From Sphingobium nicotianae (GTDB taxonomy: Bacteria; Pseudomonadota; Alphaproteobacteria; Sphingomonadales; Sphingomonadaceae), in assembly GCF_018603885.1 (NCBI RefSeq), contig NZ_JAHGAW010000014.1:1-64000 (forward strand): a stretch of 64,000 bases of DNA, read 5' to 3'. A model generated the notes under the pieces. The model saw nothing but the letters and a program-made list of their open reading frames with translations, was not told where the DNA came from and made no database searches. Each line of letters begins with the position of its first letter. Positions within the stretch are counted from its first letter, which is position 1. Shown in pieces: positions 10,966 to 28,844 of the stretch. The translations under genes and the position numbers were made by a program.

Positions 10966-11754
10966 ATGGCCCTTTCCGATCTGATCGCCAGGCAGCTTCC
11001 CTATTTGCGCCGCTATGCCCGCATCCTCACCGGCTCGCAGTCGCTGGGTGATGGCTTCGTGCGCGAGCTGCTGGAAGCCGCGCTAGCCGATCCGCAGGTC
11101 CGCGAGCAGGTTTCCACACGCGTTGGTCTGTTCGCGGCCTTCACCAAGATTTACGCGGGCGCCGGTGCTCAACTGGAAGTGTCCGGTGCAGGCACGCCGG
11201 AGGATGCGACCGTGGCGAGCCGGCTCGAACTGGTCACGCCGCGCGCGCGCCAGGCGCTTCTGCTCAGTTCGGTCGAGGATTTTTCGGCGGCCGAGATCGC
11301 CGAGATTCTCGATTGCCCGGAAGCGGATGTGCCCGCGCTTATCGACAGCGCGGTGGAGGAAATTGACGCGGGCAGCCGCTCCGATGTGCTGATCATCGAG
11401 GATGAGCCGCTGATCGCGCTGCAGATCGAGGAGATCGTGACGTCGCTCGGCCATAATGTGGTGGGGACGGCGACGACCCACGCCCAGGCCGTGGCGCTGT
11501 TCGACGCTCATCGGCCGGAGCTCGTGCTGGCGGACATTCAGCTGGCAGACGGCAGCTCGGGCATCGATGCGGTCAACGAGATCCTGGCGAAATTCTCGGT
11601 GCCGGTGATCTTCATCACTGCCTTCCCGGAGCGCCTGCTGACCGGCGAGCGGCCCGAACCGACCTATCTCATCCCCAAGCCGTTCAGCGACGATTTTGTG
11701 CGAGCCACGATCGGCCAGGTGATCTTCTTCGGATCGACTGCTCCGCTCAGGTGA
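10966..11754 (+). CDS. phyR: General stress response regulator PhyR
   Basis: 262 residues. The N-terminal half (about 1-125) is a sigma-factor-like domain with sigma2/sigma4 features, such as LRRYARILTGSQSLGDGFV and ARQALLLSSVEDFSAAEIAEIL. The C-terminal half is a receiver domain, with acceptor Asp in LVLADIQLADGS and Lys in YLIPKPFS. In the known PhyR mechanism, phosphorylation frees the sigma-like domain to bind NepR, which releases EcfG. nepR and ecfG are 2.4 kb downstream, so the whole partner switch is in this locus. The convergent kinase gene overlaps its last 8 bp. AAGGAGG upstream fixes the start at ATG 10966. Confidence 0.96.
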   Translation: MALSDLIARQLPYLRRYARILTGSQSLGDGFVRELLEAALADPQVREQVSTRVGLFAAFTKIYAGAGAQLEVSGAGTPEDATVASRLELVTPRARQALLLSSVEDFSAAEIAEILDCPEADVPALIDSAVEEIDAGSRSDVLIIEDEPLIALQIEEIVTSLGHNVVGTATTHAQAVALFDAHRPELVLADIQLADGSSGIDAVNEILAKFSVPVIFITAFPERLLTGERPEPTYLIPKPFSDDFVRATIGQVIFFGSTAPLR

Positions 11755-13429
11755 GAGGCGACACCACGCCCGTCCGGTCGGCCCGCAGGCGGAACGACTT
11801 GGGCGCTCGCAGCGGGATCGAGAACTGACAACGCAGACCGGTGCTCGGAAACTCGATCGTGATCGGGGTTCCGAGTTCCTGCGCGAGCGCCCGCTCGATG
11901 AGATTGAGACCGAAGCCGCGCTTGGCCGGCTCGCTGGCCGCAGGTCCGCCCCGCTCTTCCCACTGCACCGAGACGGCCTCGCCCACGATATGCCAGTGGA
12001 TGCTGACGTGGCCCTCATTGGTGGACAGGGCGCCATAGCGGATGGCATTGGTCAGCAGCTCATGGAGCGCCAAACCAAGGGACAGCGCGTCGTTGGGCGA
12101 GATGAGCACGTTGGGGCCGTCGATCCGGATCCGGTCCTCGGCATGGTCGTGAGAGCTGAGCTGCGCCTCGACCAATGCTTTGAGATCGGTCGGCCCCCAC
12201 TGCGCGCCGTCGAGCAGCGAATGGCTGGCGGCGAGCGCGCGCACGCGCTCCAACAGATTGTTGGTGAAGCTGTTCAGGTCGGTGGCGTTGCGTCGGGTGA
12301 GTGCGATGATCGAGGTAACGTTGGAAAGCGAGTTCTTCACGCGATGATTGAGTTCGCGTACGAACGCGGCGCGCTCGGTTTCACGATCAGCCTGCGCCGA
12401 GAGCAACGATTGCAAATCCTCGTTCCGCCGCTGGACGAGCAGGATATAGGCCAGCAGCAATAGCGAGAAGGACACGCCGCCGACCAGCACCACGAGCGTC
12501 AGCGGCGAGAGGCCGTGCATAGACCGCTGGGAGAAGCGCAGGATCCAATGCTGACCAAACACGGACAGGTTCTGCTCAATCGGACGGCTGGTTTCTTCAT
12601 CGCCTTGACCGGAGGAAAAGATCAGTTCCCTGCCGCCGTTGGTGGCGTCGAAAATCTCGACACGACCGCTCGATAGCAGATCGGATTTGACGGCCGCGCG
12701 GATAAAGTCCTGCGTTCGGATGGCGCCATAGACAAAGCCCTTGAACCGATGGTCTCCATTAATGGCATTCACCGGAAGATAGACGATCAGCCCCGGCGTG
12801 GTCTTCCGGTTGCGATCGACCACGAGCTGGATCGGATCGGTGGCGGCCATGGCACCGGTCCGGCGCGCGCGGTCCATTGCGTCGCGCCGGCGCGCCTCGC
12901 TGTACATATTGAAGCCGAGCAGTGTGAGATTGCTGGGGGTCCTGGGTTCCAGCATGGTGATGACATGGACCGTCTGATCGCGAGAGGTAGGCTCTGGCGA
13001 GATATGAAAATCGGGATGGCCCTCGCTCGCCATGCGCGCCGTCAGCGCAGGCAGATCGCGGCGGCTGACTGCCTCCGACCAACCTAAAGCGGCGACACCG
13101 CTCAGATCATAATCGAGACGAAGGCGATCGACGAACTGGTGGAAAAATTCCGGCGACACGGTCTGCGCGCTGACGAACAGTGCGCTGGTCGCTTCGAAAT
13201 AGGCACTGTTGGCGGCCGCCTGGCGAGTGATAGCGGCAGCGATCTCCGTGCCCTGCGCGGCCGCGTCGGCGCGATTGGTCCGAGCGGTGGCAAGCTCGAC
13301 CGACCATGCGCTCGCACACACCAGGGTCAACATGAATAGGAATACGCCAATCGGTGTAGCGCGGGGATAGTCGCGAAGCCACCGATCGAAGCGGCTCTTC
13401 GCCCACTCGCCCAATTTCCGCCCCTTCAT
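11747..13429 (-). CDS. CHASE-domain histidine kinase of HWE/HisKA_2 type, PhyP/PhyK-like
   Basis: About 560 residues. An N-terminal membrane segment (IGVFLFMLTLVCASAW) precedes a periplasmic CHASE sensor domain (about 70-270). A second membrane segment (LTLVVLVGGVSFSLLLLAYILL) is followed by a short coiled linker. The HisKA_2 dimerisation box ELNHRVKNSLSNVTSIIAL carries the His, and the ATPase domain includes LHELLTNAIRYGAL and GFGLNLIERAL. This kinase type controls PhyR in alphaproteobacteria, and the gene is convergent with phyR and divergent from dps. Whether it acts mainly as kinase or phosphatase is not visible. ATG 13474 is an alternative start, but it would overlap the dps promoter. 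Confidence 0.88.
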   Translation of the reverse strand: MKGRKLGEWAKSRFDRWLRDYPRATPIGVFLFMLTLVCASAWSVELATARTNRADAAAQGTEIAAAITRQAAANSAYFEATSALFVSAQTVSPEFFHQFVDRLRLDYDLSGVAALGWSEAVSRRDLPALTARMASEGHPDFHISPEPTSRDQTVHVITMLEPRTPSNLTLLGFNMYSEARRRDAMDRARRTGAMAATDPIQLVVDRNRKTTPGLIVYLPVNAINGDHRFKGFVYGAIRTQDFIRAAVKSDLLSSGRVEIFDATNGGRELIFSSGQGDEETSRPIEQNLSVFGQHWILRFSQRSMHGLSPLTLVVLVGGVSFSLLLLAYILLVQRRNEDLQSLLSAQADRETERAAFVRELNHRVKNSLSNVTSIIALTRRNATDLNSFTNNLLERVRALAASHSLLDGAQWGPTDLKALVEAQLSSHDHAEDRIRIDGPNVLISPNDALSLGLALHELLTNAIRYGALSTNEGHVSIHWHIVGEAVSVQWEERGGPAASEPAKRGFGLNLIERALAQELGTPITIEFPSTGLRCQFSIPLRAPKSFRLRADRTGVVSPLT

Positions 13430-13461
13430 CGCCCCCGCCAAGTTTATGCCTCCCAACCGCT

Positions 13462-13486
13462 GGAACTCTTTCATTCCCAGTTCGTT
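13462..13486 (+). promoter_or_regulatory. EcfG-type promoter of dps
   Basis: GGAAC (13462-13466), a 16-bp spacer, then CGTT (13483-13486): an exact EcfG consensus. The -10 ends 36 bp upstream of the dps ATG at 13523. The site is followed by CC, so GGAAC...GTTCC is symmetric. On the minus strand it reads GGAAC-N16-AGTT, facing the histidine kinase gene. Confidence 0.85.
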
Positions 13487-21261: not shown

Positions 21262-23595
21262 TCAGGCAGCGTTGCGGCTCGATCGTCTGGGCGCTGCCGT
21301 CTTGGCCACGGTCGCCGACGTGATCTTATGAGGCAGCTTGCTCACAAATTCGGCGAGCGGCACGGGGCGGCCGACATGATAGCCCTGGATGATGTCGCAT
21401 TCCATGCCGGCCAGAGCGTCCAGCACCTGTTGATCCTCCACGCCCTCCGCAACGACCCGCATGTCGAGCTCATGCGCGAGCTTGATCGTGGAATTGATCA
21501 GCACCGCGTCGGAGCGGCTGGTCAGCACTTGGCGCACAAAACTCTGGTCGATCTTGAGCTCGGACGCTGGCAGGCGCTTGAGATAGGACAGAGTCGACTG
21601 GCCGGTGCCATAATCGTCAATTGAAATGAGGATTCCGAGTGCCCGCAGGCTCTCCAGTTCGGCCATGCCCTGATCATCCGTCATGGTCGCGGACTCGGTG
21701 ATTTCCAGCGTAAGCTTCTCGGCGGGCATGCCATAGGTCTCAAGCAGGTCGCGGAGCGGCGCCTCAAGCTTGTTCTTGCCGAGCATCCGCATCGACAGGT
21801 TGACCGCTACCGAGAGGCCAAGCGGCGCGAAATCGGCAATGGCGCGCTCAAGCACGTAAAGCGTGAGCTTGTCGATGCGACCGGCGTCCTCGATCGCGCG
21901 GACGAAGCGGTCCGGCCGGATGAAGCCGCGGTCGGGATGGATCCAGCGGATCAGCGCCTCGGCACCGGTGATCGCATTGGAGTGGAGATCGAGCTTGGGC
22001 TGATAGGCGACCCAGACGTCGCCACGGCCCAGTGCCTGTTCGAATTCGTTGAGGATCGAGAGTTTCCAGAAGACTTCGTCCTCGTCAGTCTCGTAGCGCT
22101 CCCAGAGGATGCCGCGATTGATCGCGTTGGTCGCGGCCATGACCGCCTTGGGCAGGGCGTCCTCTACCGACAGCGCGGTCTCGTCGCAGAAGCCGGCGTT
22201 CAGGGTGATGTCGACGGTGAGCTGTTCGACCTGCACGCCGGGTGCGAACAGCGCCTCCAGACCCTCGAGGCTGGCCACGACCTCTGGCACGTCTTCCTTG
22301 CTGCGCCACGCGAAGCTGTGATTGTCGATCTGGTAGATGCGCTCATGGCCGGCCGCGAGGATCAGGCGATCGCGGATCTTGTTGAGCAATTTGCCTTGCG
22401 CGGCGAAGCCGAGCAGCGCTGTCGTTTCGACATAATTGCGCAGGCACACGACGACCATGACCCCATCATTGCGCTCATCGAGTTCCATCGCGGCGAGATT
22501 GGGCAGACCTGCCTCTGCGGACTTGGTGATGCGGTCGAGCATTGCCTGGGCCATGGTGAGAAAGGCCTGAGTGAGCAGAGCGGCGGCCGTGGCGAGACTT
22601 GCCGCGCCGATATCGAACCTGATGATCGAGAAATGCTCGACGAGAATTTGCACGGGGGCAAATGTGAACAGGCTCAGCGCCAAGGCGCCATAGCGCCAGC
22701 GTGGCTTGAGCAGCATCGCACCACTCACGAGAAGCAGCGCGGTCAAGATGGCGGGCCAGTCGCCTAACTCGATCGGCCGCCCGGCATGGAGCGTCTCCGC
22801 GGCGGCGGCCTGGACATACATGCCGGCGATCTTCTTGTGCGCAGGTACGCTGATCTGATCGCCCAGGCCGAATGCATCCGGACCGATGAGGACGCTCTTA
22901 CCCCGGAAAAAATCCTTGGGGAACCGTCCTGCGAGCACGTCCGCATAGGAGATCGACGGAAAGCTTCGCGGCCAATAGGCCCAATCGATCAGGACTTTGC
23001 CCGCATCGGCATAGTGCGTGCCCGCGAGCGCCTGCGACATCATCGGCAGCGTCTGACCGAGCACGGGCGCGGTGAGGCTGGTGTGGCGGTGAAACTGGTC
23101 GTCGTCGCTCTGTACCCAGATGCTGACCGGGGTCACATAAGGAAGCAAGGTCGCGTTTGGCAGCGCCTCCTGTTTCTCCTCGCCATTGGCGAGATTGCCG
23201 AGCAGGGCCGCGAAATAGATGTCGGCCTTGGTCTGGGCCAGGGCCTGGGCGAAAAGCTGGTCCTGCCGCGGATCTGCGGACGGCTGGTCGAAGATGATGT
23301 CGACGGCGATGCGACGGGCCCCGGCGCGATCGATCGCTGTGATCAGATCACCGTGACGGCTGCGCGGCCAGGGCCAGATGCCGAGCGACTTGATGCTCGG
23401 TGTGTCGATCAGCACGAGGACGATGTCGCCGCTCGGCGTCTTGGGGAAATGTTCGTAGCCGGCTGCACGGACCCGATTGTCAATATCGCGGCCGGCACCG
23501 GCCAGCGCTACAGCAAGCCCGATCAGGCAAGCCGTGCCAAGCACGAGGCTGCGAGCCGTTTTCGTCAGGCTCGCCAATAGGCGCAATCGAAACAT
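21262..23595 (-). CDS. CHASE2-EAL cyclic-di-GMP phosphodiesterase
   Basis: About 777 residues. An N-terminal membrane segment is followed by a CHASE2 domain (about 30-270, VLVLIDTPSIKSLGIWPWPRSRHGDLI). A cluster of membrane segments (about 275-350) and a degenerate GGDEF-like region (about 370-510, no GGDEF motif) come next. The EAL domain (about 520-770) has EALIRW, VNLSMRMLG, LEITES, SIDDYGTG, LKIDQSF and EGVED. All metal and catalytic positions look intact, so it should hydrolyse c-di-GMP. The GGDEF remnant may bind GTP or be structural. ATG 23595 is preferred to 23646 because it places the membrane segment at the N-terminus. Confidence 0.9.
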   Translation of the reverse strand: MFRLRLLASLTKTARSLVLGTACLIGLAVALAGAGRDIDNRVRAAGYEHFPKTPSGDIVLVLIDTPSIKSLGIWPWPRSRHGDLITAIDRAGARRIAVDIIFDQPSADPRQDQLFAQALAQTKADIYFAALLGNLANGEEKQEALPNATLLPYVTPVSIWVQSDDDQFHRHTSLTAPVLGQTLPMMSQALAGTHYADAGKVLIDWAYWPRSFPSISYADVLAGRFPKDFFRGKSVLIGPDAFGLGDQISVPAHKKIAGMYVQAAAAETLHAGRPIELGDWPAILTALLLVSGAMLLKPRWRYGALALSLFTFAPVQILVEHFSIIRFDIGAASLATAAALLTQAFLTMAQAMLDRITKSAEAGLPNLAAMELDERNDGVMVVVCLRNYVETTALLGFAAQGKLLNKIRDRLILAAGHERIYQIDNHSFAWRSKEDVPEVVASLEGLEALFAPGVQVEQLTVDITLNAGFCDETALSVEDALPKAVMAATNAINRGILWERYETDEDEVFWKLSILNEFEQALGRGDVWVAYQPKLDLHSNAITGAEALIRWIHPDRGFIRPDRFVRAIEDAGRIDKLTLYVLERAIADFAPLGLSVAVNLSMRMLGKNKLEAPLRDLLETYGMPAEKLTLEITESATMTDDQGMAELESLRALGILISIDDYGTGQSTLSYLKRLPASELKIDQSFVRQVLTSRSDAVLINSTIKLAHELDMRVVAEGVEDQQVLDALAGMECDIIQGYHVGRPVPLAEFVSKLPHKITSATVAKTAAPRRSSRNAA

Positions 23596-23789
23596 GGTCC
23601 AAACTCTCGGCGGAACGGACCGCCGCGCTCGGTTTATCGCAGCCAACTATGAAGAAGTTCTTCCCAAAAGGGCGAAAATCCGGGGTCTGGAACAGAAATG
23701 CCTATTATTGTAGGGAGTCGTATCTGGATGCTATCGCACAGAGGATCGTTCGCGGTTGCCGGCTCAATCAACCGGAAACTCCGTGTAGA

Positions 23790-25883
23790 TCAACTCTCTA
23801 CCATCTTGCCTGCCACGAGACGCACGACGCGGTCCGCCGCGGCGATCGTCTCGGGCCGGTGCGCAATGACGATGCGGGTGATGCCGAGCTTTGCGATCGC
23901 GCCGCTCACCAAGGCCTCATGTTCCAGATCGAGATGCGCCGTGCCCTCGTCGAGCAACAGCACCTCGGGACGACGATACAGGGCGCGGGCGAGCAGGATG
24001 CGCTGGCGCTGGCCGCCCGAAAGAGTCGAACCCATGTCGCCAACGAGGGTGTGATGGCGCATCGGCATCGTCTCGACATCATCGAAAATCGCCGCAGCCT
24101 TGAGGCATTCGCGCAGCCAGTCCATGTCAACATCTTCGAAAGAGGCGACATTGTCGGCAATCGAGCCGGCATAGAGCACATCGTCCTGAAGCACGGCGGC
24201 GACATGCTGACGGAAGGCGCGGCGACCATATTGGGGGAGGGGGCGGCCGTCGATCAGCACCTGGCCCTCGATCGGGTCGATGAGGCCGAGAATGATCTTG
24301 GCGAGGGTGGACTTGCCGCTTCCAGACGGTCCGGTGAGCGCGACATGCTCGCCCGGCGTGATGGTGAGATCGATGCCCGCCAGCACCAGCGGCTCCTGCG
24401 GCCCGTAGCTGAAATGGACATTGCGCAGTGCGATCCGTCCTTCGAAGCTGGGTTGCATCAGCGGCTCGGAAAAACCCAGATCCTCCTCGGTGTGGGCGAT
24501 GTCGGCCAGCTGTTCCAGATGCAGGTCGAGCAGGCGCAGCTCCACCGCCTCGTCGAGCAGCGACTGGCCGGCCTGGACGAATTGCTGGCGATAGGCGAGA
24601 TAAGCGAAGAGCGTACCGAGACTGAGCGCCCCGGCCATCGAGGCGCGCATCGCGAGATAGATGACGATCACGAGCTCGACAGCGGGGATCAACGTCTTGG
24701 CCGTCTCGTGCCAGGCCTTGGTCCGCTCATGGAGATAGCGCGCGCCGAGCGCTTCAGTCAGACGGTTCTGCCAATAAGCGTGGCGCATTGCTTCGCGCCC
24801 GGCGAGGCGCAGCGTCACCATGCCGCGCAGTGTCTCGATGAGTGCGCCCTGCTCGCGACCGAGCGCTTTCACATAATCGGCCTCGCGAACCCGCTCGTCG
24901 CGCAGCAGGACCAGGCGCAGCGCAGCATAGACAAGCAGGCCAACCAGCGTGACGGCCGCGAGCGGCGGCGCCGTGACCAGCATCATGGCGAGGGTCAGAA
25001 GCGACAGACAGCCGTCGATCAGCGCCAGCGGCGCGCTCTGGATCAGGAATTTCTGGATTGGAAGGACGGACTGGAAGCGCGTGAGAATGTCGCCGACCTT
25101 GCGCTTCTCGAACCAGGCGATGGGCAGGCGCGTCAGGCGCCGTCCGAGATTGGAGGTGATGCCGAACGAGAGCGCCGCGCCCGAGGAAAGCAGCACAAAC
25201 TTGCGCAGCACACTGGCGCCCGCGCCGATCAGGGCGAGCGCCGCGAAGCCGAGCGCCAGCGTCACCAGCAAACTGTTGTCGAGTGCGGGCAGCGCCTCGT
25301 CCACCGCCGAGCGGAGGTAGAAGGGCGTTGCCAGTACATAGGTCTGCATGACGATGCTGAGGATGATCGTTTGCGCCAGAGCGCGGCGGAAGCCGGTAAT
25401 GCCGCTCCACAGATCGGTGAAACGCAACCGCCTTTTGGCGCGGACGGGCTCGAAGTCGCCGGATGGGCGCAGCTCCAGCGCGACACCGCTGAAATGCTTG
25501 CCCAATTCCTCGAACTCGTACCAGCGCGCCGACCCGGCCGGATCGATGATGTGGGCACGCTCGCCCTCGACCTGCTCCAGCACGACGAAATGGTTGAGGT
25601 CCCAGTGCAGGATCGCGGGCACATGCAGCATGGGCAGGCCCTTGAGGTCCAGCTTCAGCGGCCGCGTCAGCAGATGCATCGCGTCGGCCGTCTGCATGAG
25701 CTGTCGCAGGCTCATGCCGCGCGCGCTGACGCCGAAGCGCTGACGCAGCATGTTGAGATCGACCTCATGGCCGTGCCAGTTCGCGACCATGGCGAGGCTG
25801 GCGAGCCCGCACTCGGCCGCCTCGGTCTGGCGGATCGGCATGATCCGCTTGCGTCCGGTGAAATTGGCCGGGAAGATGTTCAT
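23790..25883 (-). CDS. Peptidase-containing ABC transporter (C39, bacteriocin-type exporter)
   Basis: 697 residues. The N-terminal C39 protease domain (about 1-135) has Gln19, catalytic Cys25 in TEAAECGLASLAMV, His98 in DLNHFVV and Asp114 in HIIDPAGS. The transmembrane domain spans about 160-430. The ATPase has Walker A GPSGSGKST, signature LSGGQRQR and Walker B VLLLDEGTAHLD. Such transporters cut after a double-glycine in a leader and export the peptide through the inner membrane. ATG 25883 overlaps the HlyD stop (ATGA). The GG-leader peptide at 27309-27410 upstream is the obvious cargo. Confidence 0.95.
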   Translation of the reverse strand: MNIFPANFTGRKRIMPIRQTEAAECGLASLAMVANWHGHEVDLNMLRQRFGVSARGMSLRQLMQTADAMHLLTRPLKLDLKGLPMLHVPAILHWDLNHFVVLEQVEGERAHIIDPAGSARWYEFEELGKHFSGVALELRPSGDFEPVRAKRRLRFTDLWSGITGFRRALAQTIILSIVMQTYVLATPFYLRSAVDEALPALDNSLLVTLALGFAALALIGAGASVLRKFVLLSSGAALSFGITSNLGRRLTRLPIAWFEKRKVGDILTRFQSVLPIQKFLIQSAPLALIDGCLSLLTLAMMLVTAPPLAAVTLVGLLVYAALRLVLLRDERVREADYVKALGREQGALIETLRGMVTLRLAGREAMRHAYWQNRLTEALGARYLHERTKAWHETAKTLIPAVELVIVIYLAMRASMAGALSLGTLFAYLAYRQQFVQAGQSLLDEAVELRLLDLHLEQLADIAHTEEDLGFSEPLMQPSFEGRIALRNVHFSYGPQEPLVLAGIDLTITPGEHVALTGPSGSGKSTLAKIILGLIDPIEGQVLIDGRPLPQYGRRAFRQHVAAVLQDDVLYAGSIADNVASFEDVDMDWLRECLKAAAIFDDVETMPMRHHTLVGDMGSTLSGGQRQRILLARALYRRPEVLLLDEGTAHLDLEHEALVSGAIAKLGITRIVIAHRPETIAAADRVVRLVAGKMVES

Positions 25884-27088
25884 CGCTGCGCCACCGCGGC
25901 GAGCGGATCGATCAGCCATTGGAGGAACGAGCGGCGCGCCAGCACGATACGCGCCTGGAGTGCCAGGTCGGACCGCAGCAGCATGCCGCGTTGGCGCTGA
26001 CGTTCGCTCGGCGGATCGAGCCGGGCTGTGACGAGAAAGTAGCTTTCCGCTCCATCCTCCACCGGCGCTGCCCCGACATGATCGACCACGCCATGGAGCA
26101 CGCCGTAATCCGGCACCGGATAAGCGGCGAGGCTGACGCGCACATCCTGCCCCGGGGCGACTTGGGCGATAGTGGAGGTCGGCACTTTGAGCTCGATCTG
26201 CCATTCGGTGATCGCCGGAACGATGCGGCCATATAACTCGCCGCGCGACACGCTCTCGCCTTCACGATAGCGCAATGCCGTGAGCGTGCCCGTCCGGCTG
26301 GCGACAAGGTCGACGGTGCCGGCATTGCCGAGCGTCGCGCCCTCGCGGCGCAGAGCGGCAAGCTGAGCATCGAAGCCGCTCTGCCCCGCGCGCATGTGGC
26401 TGCCGATCTCGCCTAGTTCGATCTGCGCGGTGGACAGGGCATTGCCATGCAAGCTGCGGGTCTGCTGCAACTCGGCCAGACGCTGCCGGCGCGTGATCAG
26501 CAACTCGCGTCGCTGTTGGAGATCGCGGCCCGAGATGAAGCCGCTCTGAGCCACGCTCTCGATGCGCGACAACTCCTGTTCGGATGACTTGATCAGCGCC
26601 TGCTGGGACGCGATCTGCGCGTCGATCGCGCCCAACTGGCGCTGCTCGTCGAGAATGCGCGCGGAGAGCTTGCGCCCATTTTCTTCCACTTCCGATCGCG
26701 CCGAACTGCGTTGCGTGGTGAGCGCGCTCTGCTCCCTGGCAAGCTGACTCTGACGCTGCTCGGCCAGCGACTGGCCACCGGCGAGCTGTGGAAGCATCAG
26801 CCGGGCGATGACCTGACCTTGGCGGACGGTCTCGCCGTCACGCACCAGCACGGCGGAAACGACGCCATCCTCCGGCACGGCAATGCTGGCGACGCCTCCG
26901 GTCGGACGCAGGGTCCCGTTCGCCGTGACCGTGCGGCTATAGGAACCGAGCGTGATGAAGAGAGCTGCCGCCGCGACGAAGCTCAGCAACAGCCAGCCGA
27001 TCGCCTGCCAGCGCAGTGGCGGGACGAGAAAGACCTCGCCGTGGAGGCGATGCTGGTGATCCAGCGCCTGTTGCCTGAAGAGCTGCAT
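25880..27088 (-). CDS. HlyD-family periplasmic adaptor of the peptide exporter
   Basis: 402 residues. A short cytoplasmic N-terminus precedes one membrane anchor (about 30-50, AIGWLLLSFVAAAALFITLG). Next come a lipoyl-like half-motif (VRDGETVRQGQVIARL), a long coiled-coil hairpin (about 105-230) and the second lipoyl half with beta-barrel (YREGESVSRGELYGRIVP, VAPGQDVRVSLAAYPV). It links the ABC exporter to an outer-membrane channel of TolC type, which is not encoded in this window. It is upstream of, and translationally coupled to, the C39 ABC transporter. Confidence 0.93.
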   Translation of the reverse strand: MQLFRQQALDHQHRLHGEVFLVPPLRWQAIGWLLLSFVAAAALFITLGSYSRTVTANGTLRPTGGVASIAVPEDGVVSAVLVRDGETVRQGQVIARLMLPQLAGGQSLAEQRQSQLAREQSALTTQRSSARSEVEENGRKLSARILDEQRQLGAIDAQIASQQALIKSSEQELSRIESVAQSGFISGRDLQQRRELLITRRQRLAELQQTRSLHGNALSTAQIELGEIGSHMRAGQSGFDAQLAALRREGATLGNAGTVDLVASRTGTLTALRYREGESVSRGELYGRIVPAITEWQIELKVPTSTIAQVAPGQDVRVSLAAYPVPDYGVLHGVVDHVGAAPVEDGAESYFLVTARLDPPSERQRQRGMLLRSDLALQARIVLARRSFLQWLIDPLAAVAQR

Positions 27089-27295
27089 ATCTCTCGACCC
27101 TCAAGCCGCTTCTAGGGCGTGAGGTGGGGAAAGGGCCATAGCTATTTTTTGCGAGCGGGGCGGGCTGCCGAACCATGAGCTGGGCGGTGGTCTGCCACGC
27201 CCGCTGGCCCATGCTCATGAAAATCCGGGCGGACAAGGGTCCCAGGAGACCCGCCCGCCCGGCTAAATCTTTCTGCCCCTGAAAATCAGGTCAGT

Positions 27296-27317
27296 CGCGG
27301 CCTAATGACTAGCCGCG
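27296..27317 (-). terminator. Hairpin overlapping the stop codon of the GG-leader peptide gene
   Basis: CGCGGC (27296-27301) and GCCGCG (27312-27317) pair around a 10-nt loop that contains the TAG stop. There is no T-tract. It could act as an attenuator that gives more peptide mRNA than exporter mRNA, or as an mRNA-stabilising end. Confidence 0.4.
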
Positions 27318-27410
27318 GATACCCGTGTCCGACTCGTTGTTGCCGAAACCGCCGGCAACCTGGTCGATTTCCTGCTCGTTGAGCTCTTCGACGAGAACTT
27401 CGTTAACCAT
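27309..27410 (-). CDS. Double-glycine leader peptide precursor (33 residues)
   Basis: A 33-codon gene ending in TAG. The leader MVNEVLVE... continues as ELNEQEIDQVAGG, which fits the GG-leader pattern (hydrophobic at -4, -7 and about -12, acidic between). The core after GG is FGNNESDTGIRG, only 12 residues, hydrophilic, with no Cys. AGGAG lies 7 bp before the ATG at 27410. The HlyD adaptor and the C39-peptidase ABC exporter follow on the same strand, so cleavage after Gly21 and export are likely. The function of the mature peptide (bacteriocin, signal or other) is unknown. The leader match and the context are strong; the product itself is inferred. Confidence 0.85.
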   Translation of the reverse strand: MVNEVLVEELNEQEIDQVAGGFGNNESDTGIRG

Positions 27411-27768
27411 CGACGACTCCTGTTATCTGCCGGATTAAACCCGACTTTTCGTCGTTATCTTATGGTCAACGAATCGTAAACGGAGTTAACCTTTGTGTGC
27501 GGCGAGGCGTTTTCTGGGCTTTTTATGGCTGTTATTAACCATAATATTCAAGCTCATAGGCGGGTCTGCTCGCAGCGGAAATTCACGAGGACTATTCATA
27601 GATGAACCAATTTGAGACAGCGTTGGCGCCCGCTGTGGCAGCTACTCCCCGAGTGTTGTTTGGTCGAGTCGCAGGGCTGTCCGGGGTTGCGGGAGGGCGC
27701 CTTCAAAATAAGGATGAGCCGGGGGCGATGTTTCGCCCCCCCCTCAGCCCAGCTTCCTCCCCGAGCGG
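27411..27768. other. AT-richer intergenic region upstream of the peptide gene
   Basis: 358 bp, visibly more AT-rich than the surroundings. It must hold the peptide promoter; on the minus strand TTGACC (near 27471) could be a -35, but no good -10 is spaced from it. A GC-rich hairpin lies at 27721-27740. A plus-strand 71-codon frame from ATG 27602 has a possible ribosome site but runs through that hairpin and into the neighbouring gene, so it is not called. Confidence 0.5.
27721..27740 (-). terminator. GC-rich hairpin downstream of the secreted protein gene
   Basis: GGGGGCGA-TGTT-TCGCCCCC, an 8-bp perfect stem with a 4-nt loop, about 30 bp past the stop at 27769 on the minus strand. It lacks an immediate T-run (GGCTCATCCTTATTTT follows), so it is a likely but not classical terminator. 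Confidence 0.5.
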
Positions 27769-28728
27769 CTACCGTGCGTTGATAAGGCTTTGTCCTGTCG
27801 GGAAATTGCCTTCATAAGGCTCCCAGTTGGGTAATGGAATCCTGGCATCGGCATAGGTCATCGCCGCATAGACGGAGCTGATCTTCCCGCCGTCGAGATA
27901 GAAGACCTCCATGAAGCAGTTGCGCCGCTTGGGATTGAGCGGCTCGCGCATGAAGACCGCCGAGGCCATCACGACCTGTGCCTCGACATCCACCATCAGA
28001 TAGCGCCGTGCGGCGACATTGACGATGTTGAGGCTCGCGTAGCCCGAGCGGCAATCGGTGTGGCTCTGGAAGTCGGCATCGGCGGGCGGCGCGGGCTTCC
28101 TGTTCCACTCCTGGCCGCCCATGCCATTCTCGAAGCGCATGCAACCATCATTGGCCTGTACGTGGCGGCCAGTCTGGGCGACGATGCCATCGAAATAGCT
28201 GTTCACAGCGGCGATGAGTTGCTCGCGCGTGGCACGCTGGGCGACCGGGACGGTACGCTGCGCGGGCGGGTGCGCGACGAGATTGTCGACGTCGAACGTC
28301 GCCTTCGATCCTTCGCCCATGATGCCGGGATCGGCGGCGCGGGCGATATGCCATTCCGCTTCCGTGACTTGCCCGCCCTGGCCGATCTTGAGGCGCAGCG
28401 AGACGACCGCCATTTTGTCGCTCTCCCTGACCGTACCGAAAAACTCGGCCTGGCTGGTGTCGGCATCATAGTAGCGCCGGTCGATCGGGCCGATGCCGGT
28501 GTTGGATTTCCAGATGCCGTCGCCCTGGTGCAGCAGCACGGCATTCTGGGTTTGGCGGAAGCCGACCCAGAGATTGGCCTTGGCCGGATCATGCGCGACG
28601 ACGGCGTTCAGGAACTGGTCGAGCTTGCCGGCGAGGCATTTGCGGTCGCATTTCCCCTGTGCGGCGGCCGGTGCGGACAGCCCGGCGAGGCCAAGCGCCG
28701 TCATGGCCAGGACGATCTGTCTCTTCAT
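27769..28728 (-). CDS. Secreted protein of unknown function
   Basis: 319 residues. ATG 28728 has GGGAGGGG upstream and gives a clean signal peptide (MKRQIVLAMTALGLAGLSAPAAAQ, cut after residue 24). The mature protein has Cys pairs (GKCDRKCLAG near the start; NDGCM, TDCRSG and RNCFMEV later), suggesting disulfides in the periplasm or outside. The two halves have a SnoaL/NTF2-like feel (LDQFLNAVVAHDPAKANLWVG; LIAAVNSYFDGIV), but this is only an impression. It is divergent from an FAD-linked oxidase gene and shares its control region. Confidence 0.65.
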   Translation of the reverse strand: MKRQIVLAMTALGLAGLSAPAAAQGKCDRKCLAGKLDQFLNAVVAHDPAKANLWVGFRQTQNAVLLHQGDGIWKSNTGIGPIDRRYYDADTSQAEFFGTVRESDKMAVVSLRLKIGQGGQVTEAEWHIARAADPGIMGEGSKATFDVDNLVAHPPAQRTVPVAQRATREQLIAAVNSYFDGIVAQTGRHVQANDGCMRFENGMGGQEWNRKPAPPADADFQSHTDCRSGYASLNIVNVAARRYLMVDVEAQVVMASAVFMREPLNPKRRNCFMEVFYLDGGKISSVYAAMTYADARIPLPNWEPYEGNFPTGQSLINAR

Positions 28729-28844
28729 CTTACCCCTCCCTTGTGATGTCACTGCGCGTTGCGTTCGCGCTCCGCCTGATAGAATGGCGTTTTCATCGGA
28801 TCGGATCGCGCCGTCGTTTCGACGGCGATCGCAACTCGCCCATT

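Follow-up and report, generated by a model that had tools for sequence, protein, structure and literature searches.

What might a bacteriocin-type exporter be doing when the peptide encoded beside it has a core of only a dozen hydrophilic residues? The question is raised by a locus of Sphingobium nicotianae lying within the first 64,000 nucleotides of contig NZ_JAHGAW010000014.1 (assembly GCF_018603885.1), the whole of which was analysed and is referred to here as the window. An earlier note, made from the letters alone, described a 33-codon double-glycine (GG) precursor gene followed on the same strand by a HlyD adaptor and a C39-peptidase ATP-binding cassette (ABC) exporter. Its interval closed at 23790, where the 697-residue exporter indeed ends, and thus before a CHASE2-EAL gene that was overlooked. 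The reading tentatively preferred here is that a dedicated exporter delivers a small regulatory peptide which would act at the envelope of the cell that makes it, the CHASE2-EAL protein being the candidate receptor. The genes concerned are as follows (transmembrane domain, TMD; nucleotide-binding domain, NBD; cyclic di-GMP, c-di-GMP).

27309-27410, minus strand: double-glycine precursor gene of 33 codons with an ATG start (leader codons 27348-27410, stop 27309-27311), identified from the open reading frame (ORF) list, orthologues and substitution ratios (pN/pS)
27312-27347, minus strand: predicted core of 12 residues, FGNNESDTGIRG, after the leader MVNEVLVEELNEQEIDQVAGG
25880-27088, minus strand: HlyD-type adaptor, 402 aa, full length in the window (PF13437, 1e-13)
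23790-25883, minus strand: peptidase-containing ABC exporter (C39-TMD-NBD), 697 aa (PF03412 1.2e-31, PF00664, PF00005)
21262-23595, minus strand: CHASE2 sensor, degenerate GGDEF and EAL c-di-GMP phosphodiesterase, 777 aa (PF05226 1.3e-35, PF00563 5.2e-64)

A conserved peptide gene with a dedicated exporter

The reading frame, start and sequence of the precursor are exactly those quoted earlier, the translation running through MVNEVLVEELNEQEIDQVAGG into FGNNESDTGIRG with the predicted cut after Gly21. Its leader fits what we take to be the GG-leader pattern (L at -12, E at -8, I at -7, V at -4, G at -2 and -1). The gene is regarded as real because leader, core and the 14-nt Shine-Dalgarno/start element before it are all conserved. 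A search for the leader in relatives with the same exporter, the check proposed earlier, found both leader and core kept in sphingomonads. Eight aligned peptides share invariant leader residues (E9, L10, E12, E14, V18, A19, G20 and G21) and invariant core residues (E26, R32 and G33). Orthologous precursors are 31-38 residues long, with cores of 12-16 residues and the consensus xPNxESNTGIRG; that of Sphingobium sp. SYK-6 reads VPNDESNTGVRGYN. The previous description of the core as tiny, hydrophilic and free of Cys holds throughout, with a grand average of hydropathy (GRAVY) of -1.03 to -1.88 in 8/8; the cores carry no conserved charge, and tyrosine occurs in just two of nine.

Pooled pairwise pN/pS, drawn from few codons and related sequences, is 0.27 for the leader (bootstrap 0.13-0.48) and 0.52 for the core (0.29-0.76) in eight sequences; in nine sequences, with multiple-hit correction, the values are 0.165 and 0.385. 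By this measure the core is under purifying selection, and it is kept across species, not diversified. The gene was detected in a single copy in its own genome. No sign of further GG precursors there came from a search with one degenerate pattern (other leader types lie outside its reach), which occurred in five places, against six for a reversed control pattern. Of the four places other than the peptide itself, three belong to ORFs of 107-406 aa, and at the remaining one no ORF reaches 20 aa.

The exporter start (25883) overlaps the HlyD stop in an ATGA. As reported earlier, a Gln/Cys/His/Asp set is present, here Q19, C25, H98 and D114, which we take to fit the catalytic set of C39 peptidases. 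The protein aligns over residues 11-697 with the PCAT1-type structure 4ry2 and over 19-696 with ComA (8hf4). In NCBIfam it is closest to the models of NHLM, HlyB, LssB and bacteriocin exporters, with the best 25 all far below their curated cut-offs. By the features tested, the locus is a peptidase-containing ABC transporter (PCAT) with a linked GG precursor. Peptide gene, HlyD and exporter would constitute one dedicated export system, in which the C39 domain would cut after Gly21 and the exporter would move a hydrophilic peptide of 12-16 residues (xPNxESNTGIRG-like) across the inner membrane. Processing and export of the precursor are, on this evidence, very likely.

Fixed gene order in what is probably one clade

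A peptide search of 150 relatives (29 genera) gave matches at E up to 1 in 13 genomes, eight of which, the own genome included, are clear (E 1.8e-16 to 3.1e-6, the seven others starting at 3.6e-10). The five weak matches (best E 0.06-0.94) appear to be leader-like or due to chance and were dropped. With a profile of the eight peptides, orthologues were found in 9/94 genomes of the genus, Sphingobium SYK-6 included. Ten of 396 genomes drawn from the order matched at E up to 0.01, six of them same-genus orthologues; the four in other genera (E 2.9e-5 to 0.003) were dropped as leader-only, their cores being different or unrecognisable. In a draw of 385 genomes of the class the own genome alone matched, and plasmid records held no peptide match at E up to 1.

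The exporter is carried by Sphingobium xanthum NL9, Sphingobium sp. SYK-6, the metagenome-assembled genome (MAG) Sphingobium sp. 66-54 and another three MAGs. It is matched in 28 of the 150 relatives at E up to 1e-100, with at least 77% identity in the eight peptide genomes and at most 47% in the others; the EAL protein is matched in 13/150, with at least 70% and at most 34% identity, respectively. Loci and genomes are numbered below with L and G (L023 lies in G041, L025 in G087, L028 in G057). The order peptide-HlyD-C39-CHASE2/EAL is found in 8/8 loci that can be read through (the window, L023, L024, L025, L026, L027, L028 and L110); the ninth genome, G034, was left out of this count since its contigs break inside the locus. 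Neighbours outside the block vary: a glcD-like gene occurs in 6/94 genus genomes at E up to 1e-150, and a ligase/exonuclease pair stands beside the EAL gene in the window and L027 only, among the loci compared. Fetched stretches of 24 exporter loci outside the clade held no relative of the EAL protein at E up to 1e-8, and those of six loci of more distant CHASE2-EAL proteins held no C39 exporter.

The length of 777 aa given for the CHASE2-EAL protein is counted from a start shared with relatives. Its EAL, N, E, DD, K, E and Q motifs, to which we assign catalytic roles, are invariant in 8/8 sequences, and its GGDEF domain is degenerate; by EAL domain and motifs it is a predicted c-di-GMP phosphodiesterase. 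In seven sequences, the cytoplasmic half has a pN/pS of 0.15 versus 0.40 for the sensor half, and a mean identity of 87% versus 63%. An AlphaFold model built from six sequences was poor (mean pLDDT, the predicted local confidence score, 44.4) and was not used. A precedent for signal-responsive CHASE2 proteins comes from Sinorhizobium meliloti, whose CHASE2 cyclases answer a protein signal via the outer-membrane protein NsrA, according to the accessible part of PMC13001267.

An adaptor that has lost its duct in three loci

Full-length HlyD (about 400 residues) is encoded in the window and in 4/7 other readable loci, where the lipoyl and alpha-hairpin adaptor domains are present. These domains are gone in 3/8 loci, HlyD having shrunk to 190, 185 and 163 residues in L023, L025 and L028; L025 lies on one 3.5-Mb contig. 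The reduced proteins retain the first 59-76 residues of HlyD, transmembrane (TM) helix included, at 62-66% identity to the window, and a C-terminal part that aligns to residues ~295-402, nearly everything between being missing. They consist, then, of anchor and barrel part without the lipoyl/hairpin duct. Biotin_lipoyl models are matched by the three full-length forms scanned (window, L110 and L027, the last below cut-offs) and by none of the three minis in the Pfam scan. The second half of HlyD_3 is matched by the L025 mini (above cut-off) and the L023 mini (just below), and not by that of L028. An AlphaFold model of the L023 (= L021) mini combines a TM helix with a compact beta domain at a mean pLDDT of 69.9; Foldseek relates it to membrane-fusion proteins, BesA first (E 1e-4, TM-score 0.45).

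Among the 24 exporter loci outside the clade, 18 fetched stretches have a HlyD match, 17 of them near whole length. The reduction is most likely derived, because exporters outside the clade mostly have a near-whole-length HlyD. The three minis group together in 34% of bootstrap trees, and either one loss of the duct or two would fit. Between L023 and L025 the mini has a near-saturated pS of 0.74, a pN of 0.34 and a pN/pS of 0.46 with its frame still open; the same pair gives 0.16 for the exporter, 0.14 for the EAL protein and 0.30 for the peptide. No close second copy of the window-type HlyD was found in G041, G087 or G057. At E up to 1e-5, G062, G028 and G079 contain only their own full-length HlyD, and G057 only its mini.

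A regulatory peptide, a weapon or a relic?

In the preferred reading, the peptide can still leave the cell through a TolC-type channel in some species, and in others, where the adaptor lacks its duct, it would end in the periplasm. That it may stop there is suggested because 3/8 loci have lost the adaptor parts that connect to an outer-membrane channel. The peptide would act at or within the producer's own envelope as a regulatory or signal peptide. Its first candidate receptor would be the CHASE2-EAL phosphodiesterase, with its predicted periplasm-facing sensor, and the peptide would thereby be tied to the c-di-GMP level. A regulatory rather than antibacterial role is reasonably probable. The assignment of the receptor, which draws on adjacency and on a sensor domain of extracytoplasmic type, is possible, if doubtful. 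A signal confined to the periplasm, cut by C39, released via a duct-less adaptor and read by a CHASE2-EAL protein that sets c-di-GMP, is unlikely.

A regulatory peptide accounts for the locus better than a weapon does, because the core is hydrophilic and conserved, no immunity gene is recognisable, the gene is single-copy and the duct is dispensable. On sequence grounds, the earlier preference for a signal over a pore-former is favoured. If the product were instead a bacteriocin resembling class II microcins, its active peptide being very small and its immunity encoded elsewhere, the exporter architecture would be the same. Related exporters of the genus and order (37-47% identity) occur with varied GG precursors, several of them hydrophobic and bacteriocin-like, which is the usual background for such a locus, and the accessible part of PMC10233263 mentions Bacteroides GG bacteriocins without an immunity gene. 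However, such an agent would have to work with a Cys-free core of 12-16 hydrophilic residues that lacks conserved charge and does not diversify between species, and loss of the duct in 3/8 loci is hard to square with a weapon. The precursor is flanked by HlyD, the C39 exporter and the EAL protein on one side and a 327-aa protein on the other, and, as stated earlier, no immunity gene is recognisable beside it, though a small immunity ORF might escape recognition. A bacteriocin is therefore considered quite improbable.

Another rival is an intercellular (quorum or biofilm) signal secreted via HlyD and a TolC-type channel, its receptor being encoded elsewhere or represented by a CHASE-HWE kinase. 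The full-length adaptor in five of eight loci is consistent with secretion; as a general statement, the earlier description of the peptide as secreted is doubtful, given the outer-membrane-connecting parts lost in the other three. In the accessible text of PMC4997328, GG small proteins of a C39 exporter enable biofilm formation in Synechococcus. The kinase is found in the same nine of 94 genomes as the peptide (E up to 1e-60), yet this distribution may merely mark a clade, the kinase lies 14 kb from the peptide in the window, and the three duct-less loci retain everything else. A signal of this kind is rather unlikely, but it is the most probable of the rivals.

Hints of a modified peptide come from profile matches. 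The window peptide matches the lanthipeptide models PF04604 (E 0.0013, 19 bits, cut-off 21.7) and NF000539 (E 0.01), and also NF038167 (18 bits, cut-off 32), which is matched by 8/8 members at E up to 1 (best 1.6e-5). Some members match TIGR03893 and the ATP-grasp target model TIGR04497 (E 0.03-0.07). All matches shown score under the curated cut-offs and cover the leader and the core's first few residues; the peptides of seven relatives also miss the PF04604 cut-off. No Pfam cut-off was reached by the eight members scanned and no NCBIfam cut-off by the window member; by score, the peptide falls outside the curated bacteriocin, lanthipeptide and CTB families of both databases. With a core devoid of Cys and no modification gene recognisable next to the precursor, as the earlier note had also observed, its suggestion of a precursor needing modification finds little support, and a ribosomally synthesized and post-translationally modified peptide (RiPP) matured by an enzyme from another locus is the least probable of the explanations, highly unlikely overall. 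Decay of the export system, the adaptor being lost and the other genes persisting as relics, is scarcely more credible. The mini-HlyDs do evolve fast (pN/pS 0.46-0.71), and the hairpin between peptide gene and hlyD is not seen in L028; against this, the same genomes keep peptide, exporter and EAL protein constrained and their frames open, and the mini gene itself is uninterrupted through its 163-190 codons despite near-saturated synonymous divergence.

Several observations weigh against an envelope-acting regulatory peptide read by the CHASE2-EAL protein. Related C39 exporters of the order are paired with bacteriocin-like peptides. The gap between exporter and EAL gene (126-262 nt) has its own conserved promoter-like stretch with a palindrome, and because of this the EAL gene is possibly a separate transcription unit. 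Core divergence follows CHASE2 (rho 0.70) only slightly more closely than the exporter (0.60) or the EAL half (0.50), the values coming from 21 non-independent pairs of seven sequences. The common distribution of peptide, exporter, EAL protein and kinase probably reflects one clade; since a single clade explains the kinase's like distribution, co-occurrence is not independent evidence of a functional link. Two of the three mini-HlyD genomes are MAGs, and the reduced adaptors could mark decay. Distant HlyD-like frames occur elsewhere in G041 (one, 31% over residues 37-397, E 4e-11) and in G087 (one, 30% over residues 32-341, E 7e-8). A replacement adaptor is thus possible in these two of the three mini genomes, which makes a periplasm-confined circuit slightly less likely.

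The regulatory reading nevertheless remains the one tentatively adopted. GG-type peptide signals are well known in Gram-positives; Gram-negative GG precursors have, to our knowledge, mostly been read as bacteriocins. If the signal were confined to the periplasm, the locus would represent a self-sensing peptide circuit within the envelope, with a bacteriocin-type exporter as its origin, and CHASE2 domains would have a defined ligand. With a tiny, non-bacteriocin-like core beside a c-di-GMP enzyme, and with some species duct-less, a role for a C39 exporter without a bacteriocin becomes testable; Sphingobium sp. SYK-6 has the locus in its full form. Among the matches listed in open-licence PubMed Central (subscription journals lie outside this scope), no title or abstract opening concerned this peptide.

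Control elements around the genes

The conserved elements outside the reading frames are these.

27408-27421, minus strand: Shine-Dalgarno and start, AGGAGTCGTCGATG, 14 nt, the sole exact match in the window
27429-27445, minus strand: GTCGG-N7-CCGGC, a small stem-loop shortly before the Shine-Dalgarno
27464-27490, minus strand: promoter-region block GTTAAC-N4-TTTACG-N5-TTGACC, conserved in the alignment of loci
27225-27262, minus strand: hairpin of 11 pairs with a trailing ATTTTC, located between peptide gene and hlyD and resembling a terminator or processing site
23651-23663, minus strand: 13-nt palindrome GAAGAACTTCTTC in the exporter-EAL gap, upstream of the EAL gene

Directly before the peptide, AGGAGTCGTCG-ATG is identical in 9/9 aligned loci. 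Five pairs of the stem-loop that precedes it are kept in all nine, with a loop of varying length. RNAalifold extends the stem to seven pairs; the two loop-side pairs are changed on both sides in three and two sequences and broken in two sequences each. Further upstream, the block GTTAAC..GGTTTACG..TTAACC is common to 9/9 loci with some variation. Its last part resembles what we take to be a CtrA box (TTWA-N7-TTAACC) and is the sole match with at most one mismatch in the 64 kb (0.14 expected), the window copy having that mismatch. A simple scan of 23500-28800 gave no sigma-70-like promoter. An EcfG-type -35/-10 pair, searched by consensus, occurs twice in the window (1.25 expected), neither time near the peptide gene.

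The hairpin between peptide gene and hlyD, which would allow an excess of the small gene's product over the exporter, is present in 8/9 loci and followed by three to five T, with two pair columns non-standard in some rows. It is absent from L028 and was not picked up by a simple terminator scan. Between 23000 and 29000, no Rfam family matched at E up to 1. The palindrome of the exporter-EAL gap is exact (GAAGAANTTCTTC) in 4/7 aligned loci and has one or two changes in the other three; as the sole match in the window with at most one mismatch (0.04 expected), it is possibly an operator of the EAL gene.

Neighbouring genes and other GG loci

The 327-aa protein upstream of the peptide gene (27769-28752) has an apparent signal peptide by eye and no Pfam match, and tblastn (E up to 1e-3) found none in eight fetched loci (seven relatives and one outgroup). 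The CHASE-HWE histidine kinase (11747-13474), a second candidate sensor, belongs to a PhyR/EcfG general stress response locus; it is separated from the EAL gene by about 8 kb in the window and about 2 kb in L024.

Elsewhere, C39 exporters keep other company. In L069, L070 and L072 (G033, G037 and G021), the stretch fetched with the C39 exporter gave no match to HlyD, and a GG precursor that is hydrophilic and contains Cys lies about 2.4 kb upstream of the exporter. L029:9590-10439 (G136) has two adjoining GG precursors next to a C39/HlyD pair, with a common leader stretch SEVELDQIAGG and cores rich in Gly, Ser and Asp. L119:14246-18722 (G438, same family) has some ten small GG precursors with leaders like LNEQELDQVTGG, adjoining a C39 protein, a second large ABC-like frame, and HlyD-like and TolC-like proteins (labelled by eye). 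Some cores of this array have HELTHVGQQG-like stretches; others, with AEPNVGIRKSKG or AQPNSGVRAKR, bear a faint likeness to the TGIRG core.

Comparison with known systems

The locus shares with PCATs (PCAT1, ComA, CvaB and HetC) a C39-TMD-NBD exporter that has the catalytic set and is accompanied by a GG precursor. Unlike in those systems, the adaptor here is cut to anchor and barrel part in three species, and the substrate core has only 12-16 residues. Class II microcins of the colicin V type (CvaA/CvaB/TolC) likewise combine a GG leader, a C39 exporter and a HlyD-type adaptor; here, in contrast, the core is tiny, hydrophilic and conserved, and the locus is not known to confer an antibacterial trait. 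Two testable features of that class, an immunity gene next to the precursor and a core that is amphipathic or hydrophobic and about 20 residues or longer, were not found.

Streptococcal competence and quorum peptides (ComC/CSP, GSP) are short GG signals cut and exported by a C39 exporter. Their receptors are Gram-positive, whereas the nearest sensor here is a CHASE2-EAL phosphodiesterase. RaxX of Xanthomonas also has a GG-type leader. In the accessible part of its literature, RaxX-RaxSTAB offers a Gram-negative example in which the peptide goes with an A/B exporter pair and has a role other than that of a bacteriocin, but its 60-residue precursor carries a sulfated tyrosine; no sulfotransferase gene is adjacent here, and few cores contain a tyrosine at all.

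The Borrelia membrane fusion protein BesA is the best fold match of the predicted mini-HlyD, at a TM-score of only 0.45. BesA lacks a hairpin; the mini-HlyD, unlike it, has no lipoyl domain by Pfam scan. For EbfG1-4 of Synechococcus elongatus we know of no CHASE2-EAL neighbour. These are GG products of a Gram-negative-type cell that serve biofilm formation and not killing, and the C39 peptidase is needed for their efficient secretion, as far as the accessible text goes (PMC4997328). Unlike the single peptide described here, they are four proteins, found outside the cell (accessible text of PMC4997328). HetC is a further non-bacteriocin precedent of a GG/C39 system in a Gram-negative-type cell, its substrate not being known in the accessible part of PMC10986499. 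The Naps are bacteriocin-like peptides without detectable antimicrobial activity that have a role in autolysis, according to the accessible part of PMC11798529. Judged by the loci compared, the Sphingobium locus stands out by a core that is both tiny and conserved, by a constant CHASE2-EAL neighbour and by an adaptor duct that has been lost naturally in some species.

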